Below the pieces are notes generated by a model that worked only from the letters and a program-made list of their open reading frames with translations, was not told the origin of the DNA and searched no databases. DNA of 52,149 bases, taken from NCBI GenBank assembly GCA_030148325.1, contig JASBTR010000115.1:1-52149 (forward strand), read 5' to 3'. Positions 4,326 to 34,692 of this stretch are shown here, piece after piece. Source of the stretch: Gammaproteobacteria bacterium (GTDB lineage Bacteria > Pseudomonadota > Gammaproteobacteria > UBA6429 > Thiohalophilaceae). The translations under genes were made by a program, and so were the position numbers. Position 1 is the first letter of the stretch; each line of letters starts with the position of its first letter.

Positions 4326-6095
4326 ATGTCAGCCGTACCCCGCAAGAAAATTCGCCTTGGCGATCTGCTGGTCGCCAACCAGCTCATCAGTGAAGAACAG
4401 CTGATGCAGGCGCTGGCCGATCAGAAAAAAACCGGCAAAAAACTCGGCCGCACCCTGATCGACAACGGCCTGGTCTCCGAACAGCAGATGCTGGAACTGC
4501 TCTCCGCCCAGCTCAAACTGCCGTTTATCGATCTCCGGCAGTTCAACTACGAAGCCGACACTATTCGCCTGATTCCGGAAACCATGGCCCGGCGTTACCG
4601 CGCCATTGCATTGAAGGAAAACCCTGACGGCTCTTTGCTGGTGGGCATGAGCGATCCGACCGACATTTTTGCCTACGATGAGCTGAGCAAGCGGCTGAAG
4701 CGCCCTATTCACCTGGCGGTGGCGCGGGAAGCCGAAATCCTGGAAACCATTGACAGCATCTACCGGCGCACGGCCGATATCAGCAATCTGGCCGAACAGC
4801 TGGGTGAGGAACTGAGTGAGACTGACATCGATCTCAACCAGATGCTGCAGAACGAGGATCTGGCCAATGCCCCGGTGGTTCGCCTGCTACAAACCATTTT
4901 TGAAGACGCGATACAGATTGGCGCCTCCGATATTCACATCGAGCCAGACGAAAGTGTATTACGCATCCGCCAGCGCGTGGACGGCGTACTACAGGAACAG
5001 GTAATGAATGAGCGCCGCATCGCTACTGCCGTGGTCTCACGCCTAAAGCTCATGGCCGGCCTGAATATTTCCGAGCGCCGCATTCCCCAGGATGGCCGTT
5101 TCAATATTCGTGTACGCGATCATTCCATAGACGTGCGCCTGTCCACCATGCCCATCCAGGATGGCGAATCCGTGGTTATGCGCCTGCTGGATCAGTCCGG
5201 TAACCGACTGGATCTGGAACAACTGGGCATGGAAGGCAGTCTGCTGGAAAATTTTCGCAATCAGGTTCGCCGCCCCTATGGCATGGTGCTGGTTACCGGC
5301 CCCACCGGCAGCGGCAAAACCACCACCCTCTATGCCGCACTCTCAGAACTGAACAAGTCGAGCAAGAAAATCATCACCGTGGAAGATCCGGTGGAATACC
5401 GCCTGCCGCGCATCAACCAGGTGCAGGTCAATGCCCAGATCGATCTTACCTTCGCCCGGGTGCTGCGCACCGCCCTGCGTCAGGATCCGGACATCGTACT
5501 GGTCGGCGAAATGCGTGATCAGGAAACCGCCCAGATCGGCCTGCGCGCCGCCATCACCGGCCACATGGTGCTCTCCACCCTGCATACCAACAACGCCATC
5601 GCCAGCGTCAGCCGCCTGCTGGACATGGGCGCCGAAGGCTACATGGTCGCCTCCGCCCTGCGCGCTGTGCTGGCACAGCGGCTGGTGCGCAAACTCTGTG
5701 ACAGCTGCAAAACACCCTATTCCCCGGTTGCGGGTGAGCAGGCTCTGATTCGCAATCTTATTGGCCAGGACATGAAAGGCGTACCCTTCTATCAGCCGCG
5801 CGGCTGTCCGCACTGCAATAATACCGGCTACCGTGGCCGGATCGGGGTGTTCGAGTTTCTGGAAATGGACGAAGAGCTGGCCGACACGCTGCTGCGTAAC
5901 GACGGCGTCGCCTTCGCCAGAAAAGCGCGCGCCAGCAAAAACTTTCGTTCCTTTGCCCTGCACGCCATCGACCACGCCTGGCAGGGCATAACCAGCCTGG
6001 AAGAAGTGGTGCGGGTAACCGGCGCCACCGAAGAACTTGAAACCACTCCCCATATGGCGCCCACAGTGCCCAGCCAGAATTCCAGCCACGGATAG
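4326..6095 (+). CDS. mshE: MSHA pilus extension ATPase MshE
   Basis: This GspE/PilB-type hexameric ATPase of 589 residues powers pilus assembly from the cytoplasmic face. Residues about 8-65 form an MshEN domain (RLGDLLVANQLISEEQL, ADQ, KKLGRTLIDNG), the known cyclic-di-GMP-binding module. Walker A GPTGSGKTT is near residue 325, followed by the Asp box (VEDPVEYRLP) and Walker B region (ILVGEMRDQETA-like). The Cys pairs CDSC (about 458) and CPHC (about 493) form the zinc site. A GAGG ribosome site precedes the ATG. It is the first gene of the pilus operon here. The mshH-mshN half of the classic operon is not upstream. Confidence 0.92.
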   Translation: MSAVPRKKIRLGDLLVANQLISEEQLMQALADQKKTGKKLGRTLIDNGLVSEQQMLELLSAQLKLPFIDLRQFNYEADTIRLIPETMARRYRAIALKENPDGSLLVGMSDPTDIFAYDELSKRLKRPIHLAVAREAEILETIDSIYRRTADISNLAEQLGEELSETDIDLNQMLQNEDLANAPVVRLLQTIFEDAIQIGASDIHIEPDESVLRIRQRVDGVLQEQVMNERRIATAVVSRLKLMAGLNISERRIPQDGRFNIRVRDHSIDVRLSTMPIQDGESVVMRLLDQSGNRLDLEQLGMEGSLLENFRNQVRRPYGMVLVTGPTGSGKTTTLYAALSELNKSSKKIITVEDPVEYRLPRINQVQVNAQIDLTFARVLRTALRQDPDIVLVGEMRDQETAQIGLRAAITGHMVLSTLHTNNAIASVSRLLDMGAEGYMVASALRAVLAQRLVRKLCDSCKTPYSPVAGEQALIRNLIGQDMKGVPFYQPRGCPHCNNTGYRGRIGVFEFLEMDEELADTLLRNDGVAFARKARASKNFRSFALHAIDHAWQGITSLEEVVRVTGATEELETTPHMAPTVPSQNSSHG

Positions 6096-6104
6096 TTTAG
6101 CCAC

Positions 6105-7325
6105 ATGCCTTTTTTTCAGTACCGAGGACGCAATGCACAGGGCGGCGCTGTTAGCGGTGATGTCGAAGCGGCTTCAGCCAGCGCGGTCGCCACCCAGCTG
6201 TTCAATACTGGCATCACCCCGGTATCCATTGAAGAGGTGCAAAAATCAACCGGCTTCGATGATCTGCTCTACCAGTGGCGGCTGCGTAAAAAACCGGAAC
6301 TGGATGATCTTATTCTTTTTGCGCGCCAGTTCTATACCCTGATGCGCGCCGGCGTCCCCATCATCCGCGCCATCAACGGCCTGGCTGACACGACCCGCAA
6401 CCTGATGCTCAAAGAAGCCCTGAAGGATGTGCTGGGTGAACTGGAAGCCGGGCACGAACTTTCCACCGCCATGACCCAGCATCCGAAAATCTTTTCCTCC
6501 CTGTTCATCAACATGGTGCGCGTAGGAGAAAACAGTGGTCGGCTGGACGAGGTGTTCCTGCAGATAGCCGGCTATCTGGAACGGGAAAAAACCACCCGCG
6601 ATCAAATCAAGGCGGCCATGCGCTATCCCAGTTTCGTGGTCATCGCCGTAGCCGTAGCCATGTTCATCATAAATCTCTGGGTGATTCCAACCTTCGCCAG
6701 GGTCTTCAGCGGCTTTCATGCCGAGCTGCCTGTGCCGACGCAGATTCTGTTGATGGTGTCGGATTTCACCGTGGCTTACTGGATGCATATTTTCGCCGCC
6801 TTGTTTCTTGCCAGCCTGGTATTGCGTCATTACCTTAATACCAAAGACGGCCGTTATCGCTGGGACAAATATAAACTGTGCATCCCCGTTATCGGCAGCA
6901 TTCTGCTGCGCGCCACATTGTCACGCTTTGCCCGCGCCTTCGCCATGTCGATTCGCTCAGGCGTACCACTGGTGCAGGCACTGATGCTGGTCTCACGCGC
7001 AGTCGACAACAGCTTTATCGGCCAGGCCGTGCTGGAGATGCGCAACGGTGTCGAACGCGGTGATACGCTGACCCGCACTACCGCAGCCAGCAAGATGTTC
7101 ACGCCACTGGTGCTACAGATGATGGCGGTCGGCGAGGAAACCGGCTCGGTGGATGACATGCTGGAACAGGTGTCGGACTTCTATGATCGGGAAGTGGACT
7201 ACGATCTCAAAAGCCTGACCTCAAAAATCGAACCCATCCTGATCGTCGTCATCGCCGCGATGGTGCTGGTGCTGGCCCTGGGCGTTTTCCTGCCCATGTG
7301 GGACCTGATCAATGTGGCGAAATAA
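6105..7325 (+). CDS. mshG: MSHA pilus inner-membrane platform protein MshG
   Basis: This GspF/PilC-family integral membrane protein of 406 residues anchors the assembly ATPase to the pilus base. It has the family's duplicated domain: FARQFYTLMRAGVPIIRAI near residue 75 and FARAFAMSIRSGVPLVQAL near residue 270. Each is followed by the typical helical segment (ENSGRLDEV and EETGSVDDML). Three hydrophobic membrane spans are visible (about 180-205, 220-240 and 375-400). It follows mshE by 9 bp, and its last 14 bp overlap the start of the next prepilin gene. Confidence 0.93.
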   Translation: MPFFQYRGRNAQGGAVSGDVEAASASAVATQLFNTGITPVSIEEVQKSTGFDDLLYQWRLRKKPELDDLILFARQFYTLMRAGVPIIRAINGLADTTRNLMLKEALKDVLGELEAGHELSTAMTQHPKIFSSLFINMVRVGENSGRLDEVFLQIAGYLEREKTTRDQIKAAMRYPSFVVIAVAVAMFIINLWVIPTFARVFSGFHAELPVPTQILLMVSDFTVAYWMHIFAALFLASLVLRHYLNTKDGRYRWDKYKLCIPVIGSILLRATLSRFARAFAMSIRSGVPLVQALMLVSRAVDNSFIGQAVLEMRNGVERGDTLTRTTAASKMFTPLVLQMMAVGEETGSVDDMLEQVSDFYDREVDYDLKSLTSKIEPILIVVIAAMVLVLALGVFLPMWDLINVAK

Positions 7326-7980
7326 CAGGGACGAGGGACGGGTGGCGAGGGACGAGGAAAACCCTCTTGCCTGTTTGCGTGTTTTTGCCACAAGGCCGGT
7401 TTGTGTTGCCGAGTCGGAAAAATGTGCATCACCGGCTGCACACACCACCTCGTCCCTCGGCCCTCGCCACTCGTCCCTTATCAATGCCTCCGGTTTTACT
7501 CTGCTGGAGCTGGTGGTGGTGATCATCATTATTTCCATTTTGGGCCTGTTCGCACTGGATCGCTTCTGGTCTCTGCGGGTCGCGGCTGAGCGCGCCGCCG
7601 TGCAGCAGGTGGTTGGCAATATCCGCAGCGCCCTGGGTCTGGAAGTGGCCCGCTATGCCCTCGAAAACCGGCTGGCCGAGCTGCCCCGGCTTGACGGCAG
7701 CAACCCCATGCCGCTGCTGGCACAGACACCCCGCAGCTATCTGGGTGAACTCTCGCCCGACCCGGCTACCCTTGCCGAAGGAAGCTGGTACTTCGATCCG
7801 ACCACAAAGACGCTCAACTACCGTGTAACTTATCGTGAAAATTTTTCCAGCCCTACCGATGAATCAGCCTGGATCCGCTGGCGAATCACGCTTATTTACC
7901 GTGATCGCAACCACAACCAGCGTTTTGATCCCGGGCTGGACGCGATCAGCGGCCTTGATCTTGTCCGCCTCGCGCATTAG
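7312..7980 (+). CDS. MSHA prepilin-like protein (MshF/MshB position), repeat-encoded leader
   Basis: The 222-residue product has a prepilin signature, G61|FTLLELVVVIIIISILG, which fixes the predicted prepilin-peptidase site after an unusually long 61-residue leader. The leader contains RDEGRVARDEE and SSLGPRHSSL, the translations of the two arms of an inverted repeat at 7326-7480. The ATG at 7312 overlaps the end of mshG by 14 bp. There is no ATG, GTG or TTG between the right arm and the pilin helix in this frame, so at least the right arm must be translated. The mature part of about 160 residues is probably a minor pilin or biogenesis factor. By gene order it is mshF or mshB, which I cannot distinguish. 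Confidence 0.78.
   Translation: MWRNNRDEGRVARDEENPLACLRVFATRPVCVAESEKCASPAAHTTSSLGPRHSSLINASGFTLLELVVVIIIISILGLFALDRFWSLRVAAERAAVQQVVGNIRSALGLEVARYALENRLAELPRLDGSNPMPLLAQTPRSYLGELSPDPATLAEGSWYFDPTTKTLNYRVTYRENFSSPTDESAWIRWRITLIYRDRNHNQRFDPGLDAISGLDLVRLAH
7326..7480. repeat. Leader inverted repeat, msh copy 1
   Basis: The left arm (7326-7361) is made of GGACGAG-like units. The right arm (about 7449-7479) is CTCGTCC-like, imperfectly complementary, with a unique core of about 85 bp. It starts immediately after the mshG stop and ends about 12 bp before the codons of the pilin cleavage site. It lies inside the leader of the gene at 7312. Confidence 0.85.
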
Positions 7981-8179
7981 CTGAGTCTCTATTCGTTCTA
8001 CCCGGCAAGGCAACCCTGATAATTCAAAAATACCCTGCCGTAACATGGAATTAAGCAGGATTTATCAGGTTTTTACTTAAATCCCCGAAAAAATGGCCGA
8101 TAACCTTCCCTGTAAATACCATTTTTTTGAAGTTCGCGAACCGCAACAGCGCGTAAACCGCGAAACAGGAGTCTTTGAT

Positions 8180-8683
8180 ATGAAAAGCAGACAAGCGGGT
8201 TTTACCCTTATTGAACTGGTTGTGGTGATCCTGATTCTGGGCATTCTCGCCGCTACCGCCCTGCCACGGTTTTTAAATGTTAACACCCAGGCTCATGAGG
8301 CTGCTGTTGCCGGTGCCGGCGGTGGCTTTGGCGCCGGTGTCGCCCTGGCGCGAGCCGCCTGGATTGCCGCAGGCAACACCGCTGCCGCAGATAATCTGGC
8401 CAGTTTTGGCGCTGCAAATATCGATACAAATGCTGCCGGCTGGCCTGTTGGTACAGACGACTCAAACTCATTGAGCACGGCTGCAGATTGCGTCCTGCTC
8501 TGGAACAATCTAATGCAAAACCCGCCAACCGTTTCAGAAACCGCATCAGCAGCAGACTACTATGCAACACTGACCGGCACGGCATGCACCTTTAGATATG
8601 AACCTGATGGGTCAACATTTATGAGTATTGTTTACGATTCGGCAAATGGCACAGTAACGGTTGATAGTGATAGTAGTTCATAA
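8180..8683 (+). CDS. MSHA-type major pilin candidate
   Basis: This type IV prepilin has a short, normal leader ([23 protein letters not shown]) and a 167-residue precursor. The helix continues [17 protein letters not shown], with Glu5 of the mature protein present. Two C-terminal cysteines (ADCVLLW and GTACTFR) could close the D-loop. AGGAG lies 8 bp before the ATG, the best ribosome site of the cluster, so this start is preferred over the open frame upstream at 8093. It is preceded by about 200 bp of non-coding DNA and followed by a hairpin terminator, both consistent with a highly expressed major subunit. It could be mshA or mshB by sequence alone. Confidence 0.85.
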
Positions 8684-8707
8684 ATAACTCGATTTTTCTC
8701 GATAATG

Positions 8708-8734
8708 AAAACGCCGGTTTAATCCGGCGTTTTC
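8708..8734 (+). terminator. Hairpin terminator after the major pilin gene
   Basis: The stem AAAACGCCGG / CCGGCGTTTT has a short TTTAAT loop and ends in Ts. It lies between the pilin stop (8683) and mshC (8746), inside the operon. It may act as a partial terminator that keeps minor pilin expression below that of the major pilin. Confidence 0.75.
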
Positions 8735-8745
8735 GATTACCCGCG

Positions 8746-9180
8746 ATGAAACGATCATTAAAACAGACATCAGGCTTCACCCTGGTCGAACTGGTGGTGG
8801 TGGTTTTACTGATTGGCATCATCGGCTTTGTCGCCGGACCACGGTTTGTCAAAACCGACGCCTTTGCGGAACGCCGCGCCGCCGATGAAGTTCTCTCCGC
8901 CCTGCGCTTTACGCAACAGATGGCCATGGCCCGCGGCGGCGGCATCCAGCTGGTGCTTACCGGCAACCGTTACACGGTTGAAGAAACCGACGGCACGCCG
9001 CTGCAAAGTCCGGATCGTTCCGGCGCCTATAGCAAAAATCTTCCCAATGGCGTCACCGCCAGCGCCATCACTCTCGCCTTCGACGGCCTCGGCCAGCCCG
9101 TGCCCAATGCGGATGTGAACATCGCGATTGGTAGTCTTTCAATTACTGTTGAAGCGGATACCGGTTATGCGCATTATTAA
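8746..9180 (+). CDS. MSHA minor prepilin MshC-like
   Basis: This 144-residue type IV prepilin has a normal leader, MKRSLKQTSG|FTLVELVVVVLLIGIIG. The mature region includes FVKTDAFAERRAADEVLSALRFTQQMAMARGG, a GspH/MshC-like arrangement after the helix, and ends in beta-strand-rich sequence. No clear Shine-Dalgarno is visible and the ATG lies 11 bp after the terminator hairpin. Unlike its downstream neighbours it has no repeat in the leader. Its end overlaps the next start by 14 bp. Confidence 0.78.
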   Translation: MKRSLKQTSGFTLVELVVVVLLIGIIGFVAGPRFVKTDAFAERRAADEVLSALRFTQQMAMARGGGIQLVLTGNRYTVEETDGTPLQSPDRSGAYSKNLPNGVTASAITLAFDGLGQPVPNADVNIAIGSLSITVEADTGYAHY

Positions 9181-9943
9181 AAGGGACGAGAGACGAGGGA
9201 CGAGGGACGAGGAAAGGCGAGTTGCCCTGACTCCTGGCGTAACCGCGAGACAGGTGCGTTTCAGCAATCAGAAAGAAACCTGTCTGCCGAAAACCTGCAC
9301 CCGATTTTCCTCGTCCCTCGTCCCTCGCCACTCGTCCCTCAGGGTGACGGGCGTCACCCTGATCGAGATGGTGATCTTCATCGTTATCGTCGGCATTGCC
9401 GTCACTGCAGTAATGACGGTTTATATTAACATCGGCCGCACCGGCGCCGATCCCATGGTTCGCATTCGCGGCATCGAACTGGGCCAGTCTGTGCTCGAGG
9501 AAATCCTGCTCAAGGCCTACGATAACAGCACGCCGCTGGGTGGCGGTTGTGTACAGTTTAGCTCCGGCAGCCGTTGCAACAGCGGTCCTTCGGCCAGCGC
9601 ACAGTCAACAGCCGGTTTCGGCAGTGACGGTGAGACCCGCGCCACATTCAATGATGTCGATGACTATCACGATATAGCCTACTGCGGCGCTAATGTCAGC
9701 GCCGCTGATGCCGCCTGCAGCGCCGCCTGTCAGCCGCTGCTGGATGAGACCGGTAATGACATTTCCGCTAACTATGCCGGTTATGCTGTCTGCATTCAGG
9801 TTAGTTTTGCCGGGACCGAAGTTAACAACACTTCTCCGGCCGATGTCGGCGTACTGGCCAATGATGGCAAGCGCATCGACGTCATCATTACCGACCACCT
9901 TAACAGCCGCTATCTGCTTAGCGCCTACCGGTTGAATTTCTGA
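9167..9943 (+). CDS. MSHA minor prepilin MshD-like, repeat-encoded leader
   Basis: The cleavage motif TG62|VTLIEMVIFIVIVGIAV defines a 62-residue leader containing RRGTRDEERR and SSLVPRHSSL, encoded by the two arms of the repeat at 9183-9340. The mature part (about 195 residues) has a GspI/GspJ/MshD-like region (RIRGIELGQSVLEEILLKAYD) and several cysteines (GGGCVQ, CNSG, YCGANV, CSAACQ). The start at 9167 overlaps mshC. An ORF extension to 9128 lies wholly inside mshC and is rejected. A GTG just before the cleavage site could give a 3-residue leader, which seems too short. Confidence 0.78.
   Translation: MRIIKRDERRGTRDEERRVALTPGVTARQVRFSNQKETCLPKTCTRFSSSLVPRHSSLRVTGVTLIEMVIFIVIVGIAVTAVMTVYINIGRTGADPMVRIRGIELGQSVLEEILLKAYDNSTPLGGGCVQFSSGSRCNSGPSASAQSTAGFGSDGETRATFNDVDDYHDIAYCGANVSAADAACSAACQPLLDETGNDISANYAGYAVCIQVSFAGTEVNNTSPADVGVLANDGKRIDVIITDHLNSRYLLSAYRLNF
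9183..9340. repeat. Leader inverted repeat, msh copy 2
   Basis: The left arm (9183-9214) has four tandem 7-bp units of GGACGAG type. The right arm (about 9307-9340) has the matching CTCGTCC units. The core of about 90 bp is unlike that of copy 1. The element starts 2 bp after the mshC stop codon and ends just before the pilin helix of the MshD-like protein. Confidence 0.88.
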
Positions 9944-10851
9944 TGAACATCAAGGGACAATGGACAGGAAAGCCAGCGACGCGGTGTTCCTCGCCACTCG
10001 TCCCTCGTCCCTCGTCCCTGGCCACACGTGGTTTTACCTTGATCGAACTGGTCGTCGCCATCACCCTGCTGGGCATCGTCGGCAGCATGGCCGCAGTGTT
10101 TCTTGGCAATACCCTGGAAGGCTATTCGGCGCTCAACCGGCGTGATGATCTGCAGACCAGCCTGCGCATGGCGGTGGAGCGCATCAGTCGCGAGCTGCGC
10201 CATGCCCTGCCCAACAGCGTCTGCACCGATGATGGCAGCGGCTGTAACAATCCCGGCAGTATCGTTTATTTTATTCGCACCGTGGATGCCGGTGAATACC
10301 AGACCCGCACGGGAAATTATGCCGGCGGTCAGGCGCGCGCGCCCCTGCCCGTCGCTCCGGCTTCCACCAGCAGCTTCGATGTGCTCTCCGGCAACAGTCT
10401 CAATGCAGCCGCCGGACAGTGGGTGGTGGTGTACAACACCGACAATGTCGACATCTACAGCAGTGGCAGTCGCCGTCAACAAATCAATGCCATCACCAGC
10501 AAAGATACCGACGGTGTGGCGCCCAATGATGTCAGCGTAATCCAGTTTGCTTCGCCGGTGAACTTTCCCACCCATTCACCCAGCCGCCGCTTTCATGTGA
10601 TCGAAAACAACGCTGTTATTTTTTACCTGCAGGGAACCGATCTCTATCGCGCCCGCAGCAGCTTTGGCTCACCTGCCAGTGCTATCGCCGGAACGGAAAA
10701 ACTGTTGCTGCAGAATGTCAGCGCCTGCACCTTTACCTATGTGCCGGGATCGCTGTTACGTTCCGGCCTGCTGCGTATCGACATCAGCGTTAACAACGCT
10801 GTCGAATCCCTGCAAATGATTCACGAGGCCCAGGTTTATAATGCACCTTAA
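9943..10851 (+). CDS. MSHA minor prepilin MshO-like, repeat-encoded leader
   Basis: This 302-residue GspJ/MshO-like prepilin has its cleavage site at G30|[17 protein letters not shown]. The following SLRMAVERISRELRHALPNSV is typical of the GspJ family. The 30-residue leader includes SSPLVPRPSSLATR, encoded by the CTCGTCC-unit arm at 9989-10021. The ATG overlaps the mshD stop by one base (TGATG), and it is the only start codon in this frame before the cleavage site. The leader must therefore be translated through the repeat. Confidence 0.82.
   Translation: MNIKGQWTGKPATRCSSPLVPRPSSLATRGFTLIELVVAITLLGIVGSMAAVFLGNTLEGYSALNRRDDLQTSLRMAVERISRELRHALPNSVCTDDGSGCNNPGSIVYFIRTVDAGEYQTRTGNYAGGQARAPLPVAPASTSSFDVLSGNSLNAAAGQWVVVYNTDNVDIYSSGSRRQQINAITSKDTDGVAPNDVSVIQFASPVNFPTHSPSRRFHVIENNAVIFYLQGTDLYRARSSFGSPASAIAGTEKLLLQNVSACTFTYVPGSLLRSGLLRIDISVNNAVESLQMIHEAQVYNAP
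9953..10021. repeat. Leader repeat, msh copy 3 (left arm decayed)
   Basis: The right arm (9989-10021) has four clear 7-bp units (CTCGTCC type). The left arm survives only as a weak GGGACAATGGACAGG at 9953-9967. The spacer is shorter than in copies 1 and 2. It lies in the leader of the MshO-like gene. Confidence 0.75.
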
Positions 10852-11311
10852 AGTCAGTGACGAGGGGCGAGGGACGAGGGACGAGGAAGGGTTGACGATT
10901 TCCCTCGTCACTCGTCACTCGTCACTCGTCACTCTGCGTAAGCAGAACGGGTTTGCGATTGCGGCGGCGATTTTTCTGCTCGTGGTGCTGGCTTTGCTGG
11001 CTGCGGGAATGGTACAGATCGCATCCACCAGCCATACTTCCCTGAGTCAGGAATATACTTCGGCGCGCGCTTATTTTGCCGCGCGCAGCGGTCTGCAGTG
11101 GGGCATGTATCAGGCTATTTATGGTGGCAACGGTAATGCCACGATTACTTTTTCCAGTGGCGCACTGGCCGGAACCCAGGCAGCTGTCAGCAGCAGTAAT
11201 GCAAGTATTGACGGCGATATATTTTATCTTATCAAGGTCAGTGGCCGTTATGCCAGCAGCAGCGATGCGGAATACAGCCAGCGACGGCTACGCCTGAGGT
11301 TTAATCCCTGA
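10841..11311 (+). CDS. MSHA biogenesis protein MshP-like, repeat-encoded leader
   Basis: This 156-residue protein has a prepilin-like or PilX-like N-terminus, G37|FAIAAAIFLLVVLALLAAG. MVQIASTSHTSLSQEYTSARAYFAARSGLQWGMYQ follows, as expected for MshP. The 36-residue leader holds SDEGRGTRDEE and SLVTRHSSLV, translated from both arms of the repeat at 10856-10935. The start overlaps the mshO stop by 11 bp. An internal TTG (residue 18) would still leave the right arm inside the leader. Confidence 0.8.
   Translation: MHLKVSDEGRGTRDEEGLTISLVTRHSSLVTLRKQNGFAIAAAIFLLVVLALLAAGMVQIASTSHTSLSQEYTSARAYFAARSGLQWGMYQAIYGGNGNATITFSSGALAGTQAAVSSSNASIDGDIFYLIKVSGRYASSSDAEYSQRRLRLRFNP
10856..10935. repeat. Leader inverted repeat, msh copy 4
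   Basis: The left arm (10856-10890) has about four GGGACGA-type units. The right arm (10901-10934) has four near-identical CACTCGT units. The spacer is only about 10 bp, so this is a tight hairpin. It is the most homogeneous tandem array of the four and starts directly after the mshO stop. Confidence 0.88.
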
Positions 11312-33327: not shown

Positions 33328-34692
33328 GTGCCTCAGAGTTCCTGGGATAAATGTCTGGCTCGCCTGGAACAGGATTTGTCGCCCCAGCAGTTCAATACCT
33401 GGGTGCGTCCACTACAGGCGCGCTTCAATGAAAATGAAATTATCCTGCTGGCCCCCAACCAGTTCGTGCTTGACTGGGTAAAAGACAAGTATTTCAATAA
33501 TATAACGGCGCTGATTAACAGCTATTCGGATAAAACCATTCCCGTTCTTCTGGACATCGGCAGTGAAGAAATCACCCCTGCCGGCAAACCGGAAAACAGC
33601 ACCGAAAATTCCGATTCAGATCCCGCCCGTGCGGAAAACTACAAAAGCCGACCGGCCGCCTCGACCCAGAGAAGCTCTACCCTGAACCCTAATTTTACCT
33701 TTGATACCTATGTTGAGGGCAAATCCAACCAGCTCGGGCGCGCCGCTTCCCTGCAGGTCGCTGAAAATCCCGGCCACAGTTACAATCCGTTGATGATCTA
33801 TGGCGGCGTGGGCCTGGGCAAAACCCACCTAATGCATGCAGTGGGTAACATGATTCTCGAACACCAGCCCCACGCCAACGTTGTTTATCTGCATTCGGAG
33901 CGTTTTGTGGCGGAAATGGTCAAGGCCCTCCAGCACGGCACCATAAATGAATTCAAGCGCTATTACCGTACTGTTGATGCCCTGCTGGTTGATGATATTC
34001 AGTTTTTTGCGGGCAAGGATCAGTCTCAGGAAGAATTTTTCCACACCTTCAATTCCCTGATAGAAAGCCACCACCAGATCATTATGACCTGCGATCGTTA
34101 TCCCAAGGAGGTGGATGGTCTGGAGGAACGACTAAAATCCCGCTTCGGCTGGGGCCTGCCAGTGACCATCGAACCCCCGGAACTTGAAACCCGGGTGGCT
34201 ATTCTTAAAAGCAAGGCGAGCAATTCCGGTGTAGAATTATCCAACGAAGTCGCTTTTTTTATCGCCAAGCGTATTCGTTCAAATATTCGGGAACTGGAAG
34301 GCGCGCTGCGGCGGGTAATGGCCAACGCCCAGTTTACCGGTCAGCCCATTACCCTGGGTTTTGCCCGAGAAGCGTTACGTGATCTACTGGCAATTCAGGA
34401 TCGCCAGCTGACGATTGAAAATATACAAAAAACCGTGGCTGAGTATTTCAAAATCAGGGTGGCGGATTTGCTCTCGAAACGTCGCAGCCGTTCAATCACT
34501 CGACCGCGGCAGATTGCCATGTCCCTGTGTAAGGAACTCACTAATCACAGTCTGCCGGAAATAGGCGATGCTTTTGGCGGTCGCGATCATACGACTGTCC
34601 TGCACGCCTGTCGTAAGGTAAAAGAGTTAAAGGAAACGGAAGCGAGTATTGACGAAGACTTTTCTAATCTGATTCGTATCCTGAGTACATGA
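33328..34692 (+). CDS. dnaA: Chromosomal replication initiator DnaA
   Basis: This 454-residue AAA+ initiator binds DnaA boxes and opens oriC. Domain I begins [15 protein letters not shown] linker of low complexity runs from about residue 95 to 115. Domain III has [16 protein letters not shown] and LLVDDIQFF. Domain IV has the DnaA-box helix signature [15 protein letters not shown]. The start is GTG, with AAGGAG 10 bp upstream. It heads dnaA-dnaN-recF-gyrB. Confidence 0.98.

Follow-up and report, generated by a model that had tools for sequence, protein, structure and literature searches.

The results of the present study indicate that the leaders of four MSHA-type prepilin genes have acquired, in frame, dispersed palindromic spacer repeats, which would be translated and then cleaved off. 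We consider the probability of this reading to be approximately 0.8. It is based on the observed positions of the repeats, their dispersal in the genome, the conservation of the mshP reading frame, and the replacement of the inserts by unrelated repeats in relatives. The window (the whole stretch of DNA analyzed, 52,149 nt) is contig C27 of a gammaproteobacterial genome assembled into 211 contigs (2.99 Mb).

Repeat arrays in the prepilin leaders

The window contains an operon that encodes an ATPase, a platform protein, six prepilin-like proteins (up to position 11311), and a large DUF6701-domain protein. The ATPase (4326-6095) has an MshE-type c-di-GMP motif, the domain of which scored 75.1 bits against a cut-off of 38, and an MshG-like platform protein is encoded at 6105-7325; the family matches of the ATPase and platform protein were below their equivalog cut-offs. 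We assigned the operon to the MSHA type on the basis of the c-di-GMP motif, the platform, the ordered prepilins, and the DUF6701 (MshQ-type) protein. The msh letters of the individual genes were given by position. Of the six pilin-like genes, four matched prepilin motif families above the cut-off; the other two, with starts at 9167 and 10841, were assigned as pilins by their position and tblastn. The whole protein of gene 9167 had no Pfam or NCBIfam match, with N_methyl remaining below the cut-off, and gene 10841 had no confident match to a family of either collection.

GGACGAG heptamer arrays are located in the leaders of genes 7312, 9167, 9943, and 10841. GACGAGGGACGAG, with two or fewer mismatches, matched the window 22 times, always within 7330-10930, while shuffled sequences gave a mean of 0.73 and a maximum of 4 matches. 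In the first prepilin gene (ORF 7312-7980, plus strand), the leader occupies 7312-7494: it begins at an ATG located in the last part of the MshG-like gene, and its frame is open as far as the Gly codon at 7492-7494. Its left arm (7327-7357, plus) is 84% complementary over 31 nt to its right arm (7448-7478, minus), which ends 13 nt before the Gly codon. The leader of the gene at the mshD position (ORF 9167-9943, plus) extends from an ATG within the end of mshC to the Gly codon at 9350-9352 (9167-9352); the left arm (9182-9222, plus) is 88% complementary over 41 nt to the right arm (9299-9339, minus), the end of which is 10 nt before the Gly codon; the heptamer arrays within these arms were placed at 9182-9212 and 9309-9339. 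At the mshO position (ORF 9943-10851, plus), the ATG lies in a TGATG with the upstream stop, and the leader (9943-10032; Gly codon, 10030-10032) has a right arm (9989-10019, minus) that also ends 10 nt before Gly, together with a possible decayed left arm of two units at 9952-9971 (plus) recognized by eye. The prepilin-like gene at the mshP position (ORF 10841-11311, plus) starts within the end of mshO, and its leader (10841-10951; Gly codon, 10949-10951) carries a left arm (10856-10886, plus) 87% complementary over 31 nt to the right arm (10903-10933, minus), which ends 15 nt before Gly.

A preliminary description of this DNA had reported inverted repeats in four MSHA genes. Both arms were confirmed in genes 7312, 9167, and 10841; in gene 9943, the right arm is clear and any left arm is decayed. 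The leader lengths of 30-62 residues given in the same description agree with the open frames from the ATG codons at 7312, 9167, 9943, and 10841, which encode leaders of 61, 62, 30, and 37 residues (Gly included), and its placement of the right arm just before the cleavage site holds for all four genes, at a distance of 10-15 nt from the Gly codon. The genes at the major pilin (8180-8683, plus) and mshC (8746-9180, plus) positions have, as described, ordinary short leaders of six and nine codons (ATG 18 and 27 nt before Gly, respectively) that lack an array.

We examined whether the repeats may be untranslated, with initiation after the right arm producing very short leaders. As had been claimed, no ATG, GTG, or TTG is present in frame between the right arm and the Gly codon in genes 7312, 9943, and 10841. 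The codons available there for such initiation are non-standard (ATC at 7480, CTG at 10018, and CTG at 10934) and in frame 12-15 nt before Gly; in gene 9167, a GTG at 9344 is in frame 6 nt before Gly. A purine-rich ribosome site was not seen by eye before any of these codons. We regard initiation after the right arm as unlikely, also in view of the mshP junctions described below.

The open frames of the four leaders were not used as the sole evidence for translation because, in 35 other paired elements of this genome, the frame is open with a probability of 0.24, and, thus, chance is not strongly excluded for these inserts. The three paired inserts are predicted to fold as RNA far more strongly than shuffled sequences (z scores of -4.5, -8.1, and -6.0), and the gain or loss of one heptamer would shift the frame. 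The inserts may accordingly be functional, with mRNA hairpins tuning the coupled translation or mRNA stability of minor pilins, or the number of heptamers switching the frame. However, the leader arms mostly comprise approximately four units with scant sign of variation in unit number, the heptamer repeat is also present in many unrelated spacers, and the same junctions in relatives have unrelated inserts or none. A selected function of this type appears to be quite improbable; a regulatory side effect of the insert hairpins is possible.

Dispersal and structure of the repeat

GACGAGNGACGAG occurred 201 times (99 + 102) in the 2.99-Mb genome, and its reversed-pattern control did not occur. Places were known for the first 100 of the 201 occurrences, and a second pattern located 47 array ends genome-wide; a looser pattern (89 matches versus 26 in the control) was set aside as too loose, and a further pattern had no match. 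The 41 stretches around the sites found, together with the window, contained 100 arrays that were grouped into 59 elements, a lower bound for the genome because copies on later contigs would be missed when the second pattern does not match them. Both arms were present in 38 of the 59, a feature shared with the dispersed terminal inverted repeats of MITEs.

The gene positions predicted with a simple ORF caller place almost every one of the 59 copies examined in an intergenic region or at the end of a gene; no gene body contains a copy. The elements occupy spacers, and their arms are often within approximately ten bases of the flanking genes. An element specific to leaders was therefore rejected. 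The genome-wide count of the GGACGAG repeat in leaders and elsewhere, proposed in the preliminary description, showed an array in four of 14 prepilin leaders. The prepilin motif family matched 13 places in the genome (one under the cut-off), and gene 10841 brings the number of prepilins to 14. Seven of the ten without a leader array lack one within 250 nt before the Gly codon; the remaining three are on C57, where no match to the array patterns was found, and their leaders were not caught by the motif search.

N-terminal read-through of an array with no later usable start was recognized by eye in six genes: the four pilin genes, hisC (L054, 1138-2268, minus), and ispD (L057, 2276-3022, plus). 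In the latter two, the enzyme domain begins after the array-encoded N-terminal extension. The difference between four of 14 prepilins and two of approximately 2700 other genes gave a P value of 7e-9 in the Fisher test, in which the gene number was assumed and the four genes belong to one operon. One of the 59 elements, a match of two units where a gene begins in L039 (291-788), was taken for chance. Simple ORF calls also gave 16 genes with an array-encoded C-terminal tail; tails such as GRVTSDE or GTRDE close genes in L031, L038, L045, L056, L057, L061, L062, L067, and L070.

The arms most often consist of four heptamers, and their inner ends resemble CGAGGAAAA and TTTTCCTCG. Copies in L032 (656-731), L041 (2226-2456), and L071 (1994-2241) have long arrays, with 11, 16, and 17 units, and AAAGTATA- or AAAGTCTA-like sequences end some long arrays, as if they formed a subfamily. 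A conserved core inside the element was considered and set aside as unlikely because 29 element cores were scarcely more similar to one another than shuffled sequences (best score, 24 versus 19; means, 9.2 versus 8.7). A known RNA inside the element was also rejected. No Rfam family matched over the leaders at its gathering score, and the only match in the window was AsdA (antisense RNA of dnaA) at 33799-33879 on the minus strand (52.1; gathering score, 52).

Among the 35 paired elements outside the operon, 16 were looked up in three congeners. In a manner similar to the leaders, at least four of these spacers have another palindromic repeat in a congener, as judged by eye, and the G003 spacers corresponding to L040 and L051 are short and empty or nearly so; no clear target duplication was recognized by eye at the two empty sites. 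In the remaining spacers, the same element was common to both genomes or the orthologous spacer was not found. Only in inverted orientation does the core of the element at L040 (2195-2299) fit that of its G002 counterpart, L170 (score of 16; highest value in 200 shuffles, 11), as would be expected if the inter-arm segment had flipped. At another spacer, the cores of this genome and G002 are homologous (33 versus 18), and the G002 arms have approximately one unit. The gap in L148 (G001) opposite L038 (2236-2376) of this genome holds a different inverted heptamer-like array of the AGTGGCT/AGTAGCT type.

Prepilin junctions in relatives

Four junctions were compared between this genome and up to 22 relatives, which were searched for among 40 genomes (the order and family coincide). 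A junction was included only when both of its genes were present on one contig; in G020 and G001, only weak matches at other pilin loci were obtained, and these genomes contributed no junction. This comparison provided the main support for our reading, first at the junction between mshO and mshP. The distance from the upstream stop to the mature pilin varied from 7 to 316 nt and was 1 mod 3 in 23 of 23 genomes, some of which share ancestry (three congeners; G021 and G004), such that simple chance figures are too small. Even within kin groups, the gaps differ by multiples of three (97, 133, and 193 nt; 187 and 316 nt). In the ten gaps longer than 45 nt (1573 nt in total), the pilin frame is free of stops, and the two other frames together contain 43. 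An ATG is present 8 nt before the upstream stop in 18 of the 23 genomes, and the other five have an in-frame start 17-26 nt before it (GTG in one).

These findings bear on two of the alternatives. An untranslated insert could drift in frame, whereas the mshP distance is 1 mod 3 throughout and the pilin frame has no stops. Furthermore, ribosomes may skip the palindromic inserts by bypassing, for which a precedent exists in the bypassed palindromic inserts of yeast mitochondria (as described in the available part of PMC6649704); however, skipped inserts need no open frame, and the mshP frame is open. We consider bypassing to be extremely improbable. In nine of the ten long mshP junctions, ATG, GTG, or TTG also occurs in frame at a distance of 12-75 nt from Gly, and part of mshP translation could start at such an internal codon. 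The conserved open frame upstream of these codons argues for the use of the overlapping start.

The comparison of orthologous operons advocated in the preliminary description yielded both repeat-free junctions and unrelated inserts. In relatives with no recognized insert, mshD and mshP start inside the upstream gene, with 7-31 nt from its stop to the Gly codon. Across all junctions longer than 45 nt (n=29), the frame is open from an overlapping start in 16; mshO of G031 is open from an ATG located shortly behind the stop; and a different start within 75 nt of Gly is present in the other 12. Downstream starts are likely at these 12, including mshD of G002, which favors initiation after the insert in such cases. 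In the first pilin gene, this genome and G002 share the start MWRNN, and their unrelated inserts both keep the frame; a downstream start is present at six other long junctions, and the pilin frame of five of these contains stops. At mshD, the insert of this genome is in frame, as is a left-arm-only insert in G021 and G004, while that of G002 is out of frame and followed by TTG starts. At mshO, the frame is open from the TGATG start in this genome, G002, and G009; in G058, G036, and G060, stops interrupt the pilin frame and the start lies downstream. The in-frame translation put forward in the preliminary description is partly supported. The mshP frame kept in 23 of 23 genomes is in its favor, but not every leader insert is read through, as shown by the out-of-frame insert of G002 mshD and the different starts at 12 of 29 long junctions.

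Further copies were sought for seven of the 12 joined inserts, from six genomes; those of G031 mshO, G002 mshO, G004 mshP, G009 mshP, and G017 mshP were left out. Six of the seven have further copies in their own genome (G002 mshB, G002 mshD, G003 mshP in part, G010 mshP, G021 mshP, and G031 mshP), with that of G002 mshD having one other place among the matches listed. Among the matches listed, the G009 mshO insert has no further copy in its genome. As judged from their sequences, the predicted leaders of relatives hold unrelated dispersed repeats at the same spots.

Proposed explanation and significance

We propose that palindromic repeats that colonize spacers reach the junctions of prepilin genes whose starts fall within, or at the end of, the preceding gene. 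As there is no spacer, an insert at the junction would fall within the pilin reading frame, and the leader would become the landing site; it would receive the repeats because the overlapping genes leave no other spacer. Inserts with an open frame would be translated from the overlapping ATG as a long cytoplasmic leader. This leader of 30-62 residues would stay in the cytoplasm, with the arms supplying part of its basic residues (such as VPRHSS), and the prepilin peptidase would cut after Gly, leaving the mature pilin unchanged and the insert nearly neutral. Leader topology and prepilin cleavage are described in the available part of PMC10191384. The cleaved leader looks like a safe landing place because relatives carry unrelated repeats at the same spots. 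The idea of a tolerant landing site, already present in the preliminary description, gains support from these repeats and from recurrence before prepilin motifs in other phyla.

A DNA-only scan of a public genome collection, which may omit the clade of the window, detected eight loci in which no more than 30 nt separate an array from a GFTLxE motif: four in Nitrospirae or Nitrospira, three in Verrucomicrobia, and one in Omnitrophota. In all eight, the pilin frame continues without a stop from an upstream start (ATG in six, GTG only in two) across the array, and seven have no start between the array and Gly. The right arm in sense is stop-free in all frames; therefore, an open array alone says little. 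L137, in which a complete hairpin is read through, says more. Of 369 genomes of the class, this genome alone contained the strict pattern, which also misses three of its four leaders; arrays before prepilins are either rare in the class or other repeats are used there. We tentatively put forward, at somewhat below even odds, that the prepilin leader is a general safe harbor across phyla for selfish palindromic DNA: any repeat arriving at a pilin junction without a spacer could be absorbed by the leader, as the leader would remain in the cytoplasm and be removed.

Rickettsia palindromic elements are palindromic, dispersed, and translated in frame inside genes, according to the available parts of PMC10969869 and PMC6649704. 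Compared by description, the present inserts resemble them in that the four leaders are open and the mshP frame is kept, with translation being predicted. In contrast, the Rickettsia elements, as described in these parts, stay in the proteins of unrelated metabolic genes, whereas the pilin inserts sit in a peptide predicted to be cut off; moreover, unlike the Rickettsia elements, the leader sites take several unrelated repeat families. The TAACTGA heptamer repeats of Beggiatoaceae are mostly intergenic and near start codons (PMC4679880, in its available text, where pilins have 0 occurrences). Both systems are heptamer arrays, but TAACTGA differs in sequence and is a direct repeat with one inverted case only. 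The present element resembles bacterial MITEs and REP-like palindromes in being dispersed, non-coding, and palindromic with many spacer copies, and may differ from them in its core, which showed little conservation, and in the target sequence, with no clear duplication recognized by eye at the two empty sites. Long leaders also occur in functional pilins, such as T4bP and the T4aP of Streptococcus sanguinis (PMC10191384, available part). These are not described there as being made of repeats, whereas the length and sequence of the present leaders vary between close species. Our literature search, with most subscription journals outside its reach, retrieved no report of dispersed repeats in prepilin leaders. 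In-frame palindromes as such were already known; here, they would lie within a peptide that is removed.

In Rickettsia, the best-known case of in-frame palindromic repeats, the repeat is retained in the protein; in the prepilins, tolerance would be explained by removal with the peptidase. The prepilin leader may thus offer a natural setting in which to examine selfish DNA within genes, and the present case illustrates how operons without spacers may push spacer repeats into a cleaved peptide. For minor pilins that have long leaders of low complexity, the annotated start codon may be wrong in either direction. If the prepilin leader is indeed a general safe harbor, the length and sequence of minor-pilin leaders would, for the most part, reflect which repeats the genome has carried in the past.
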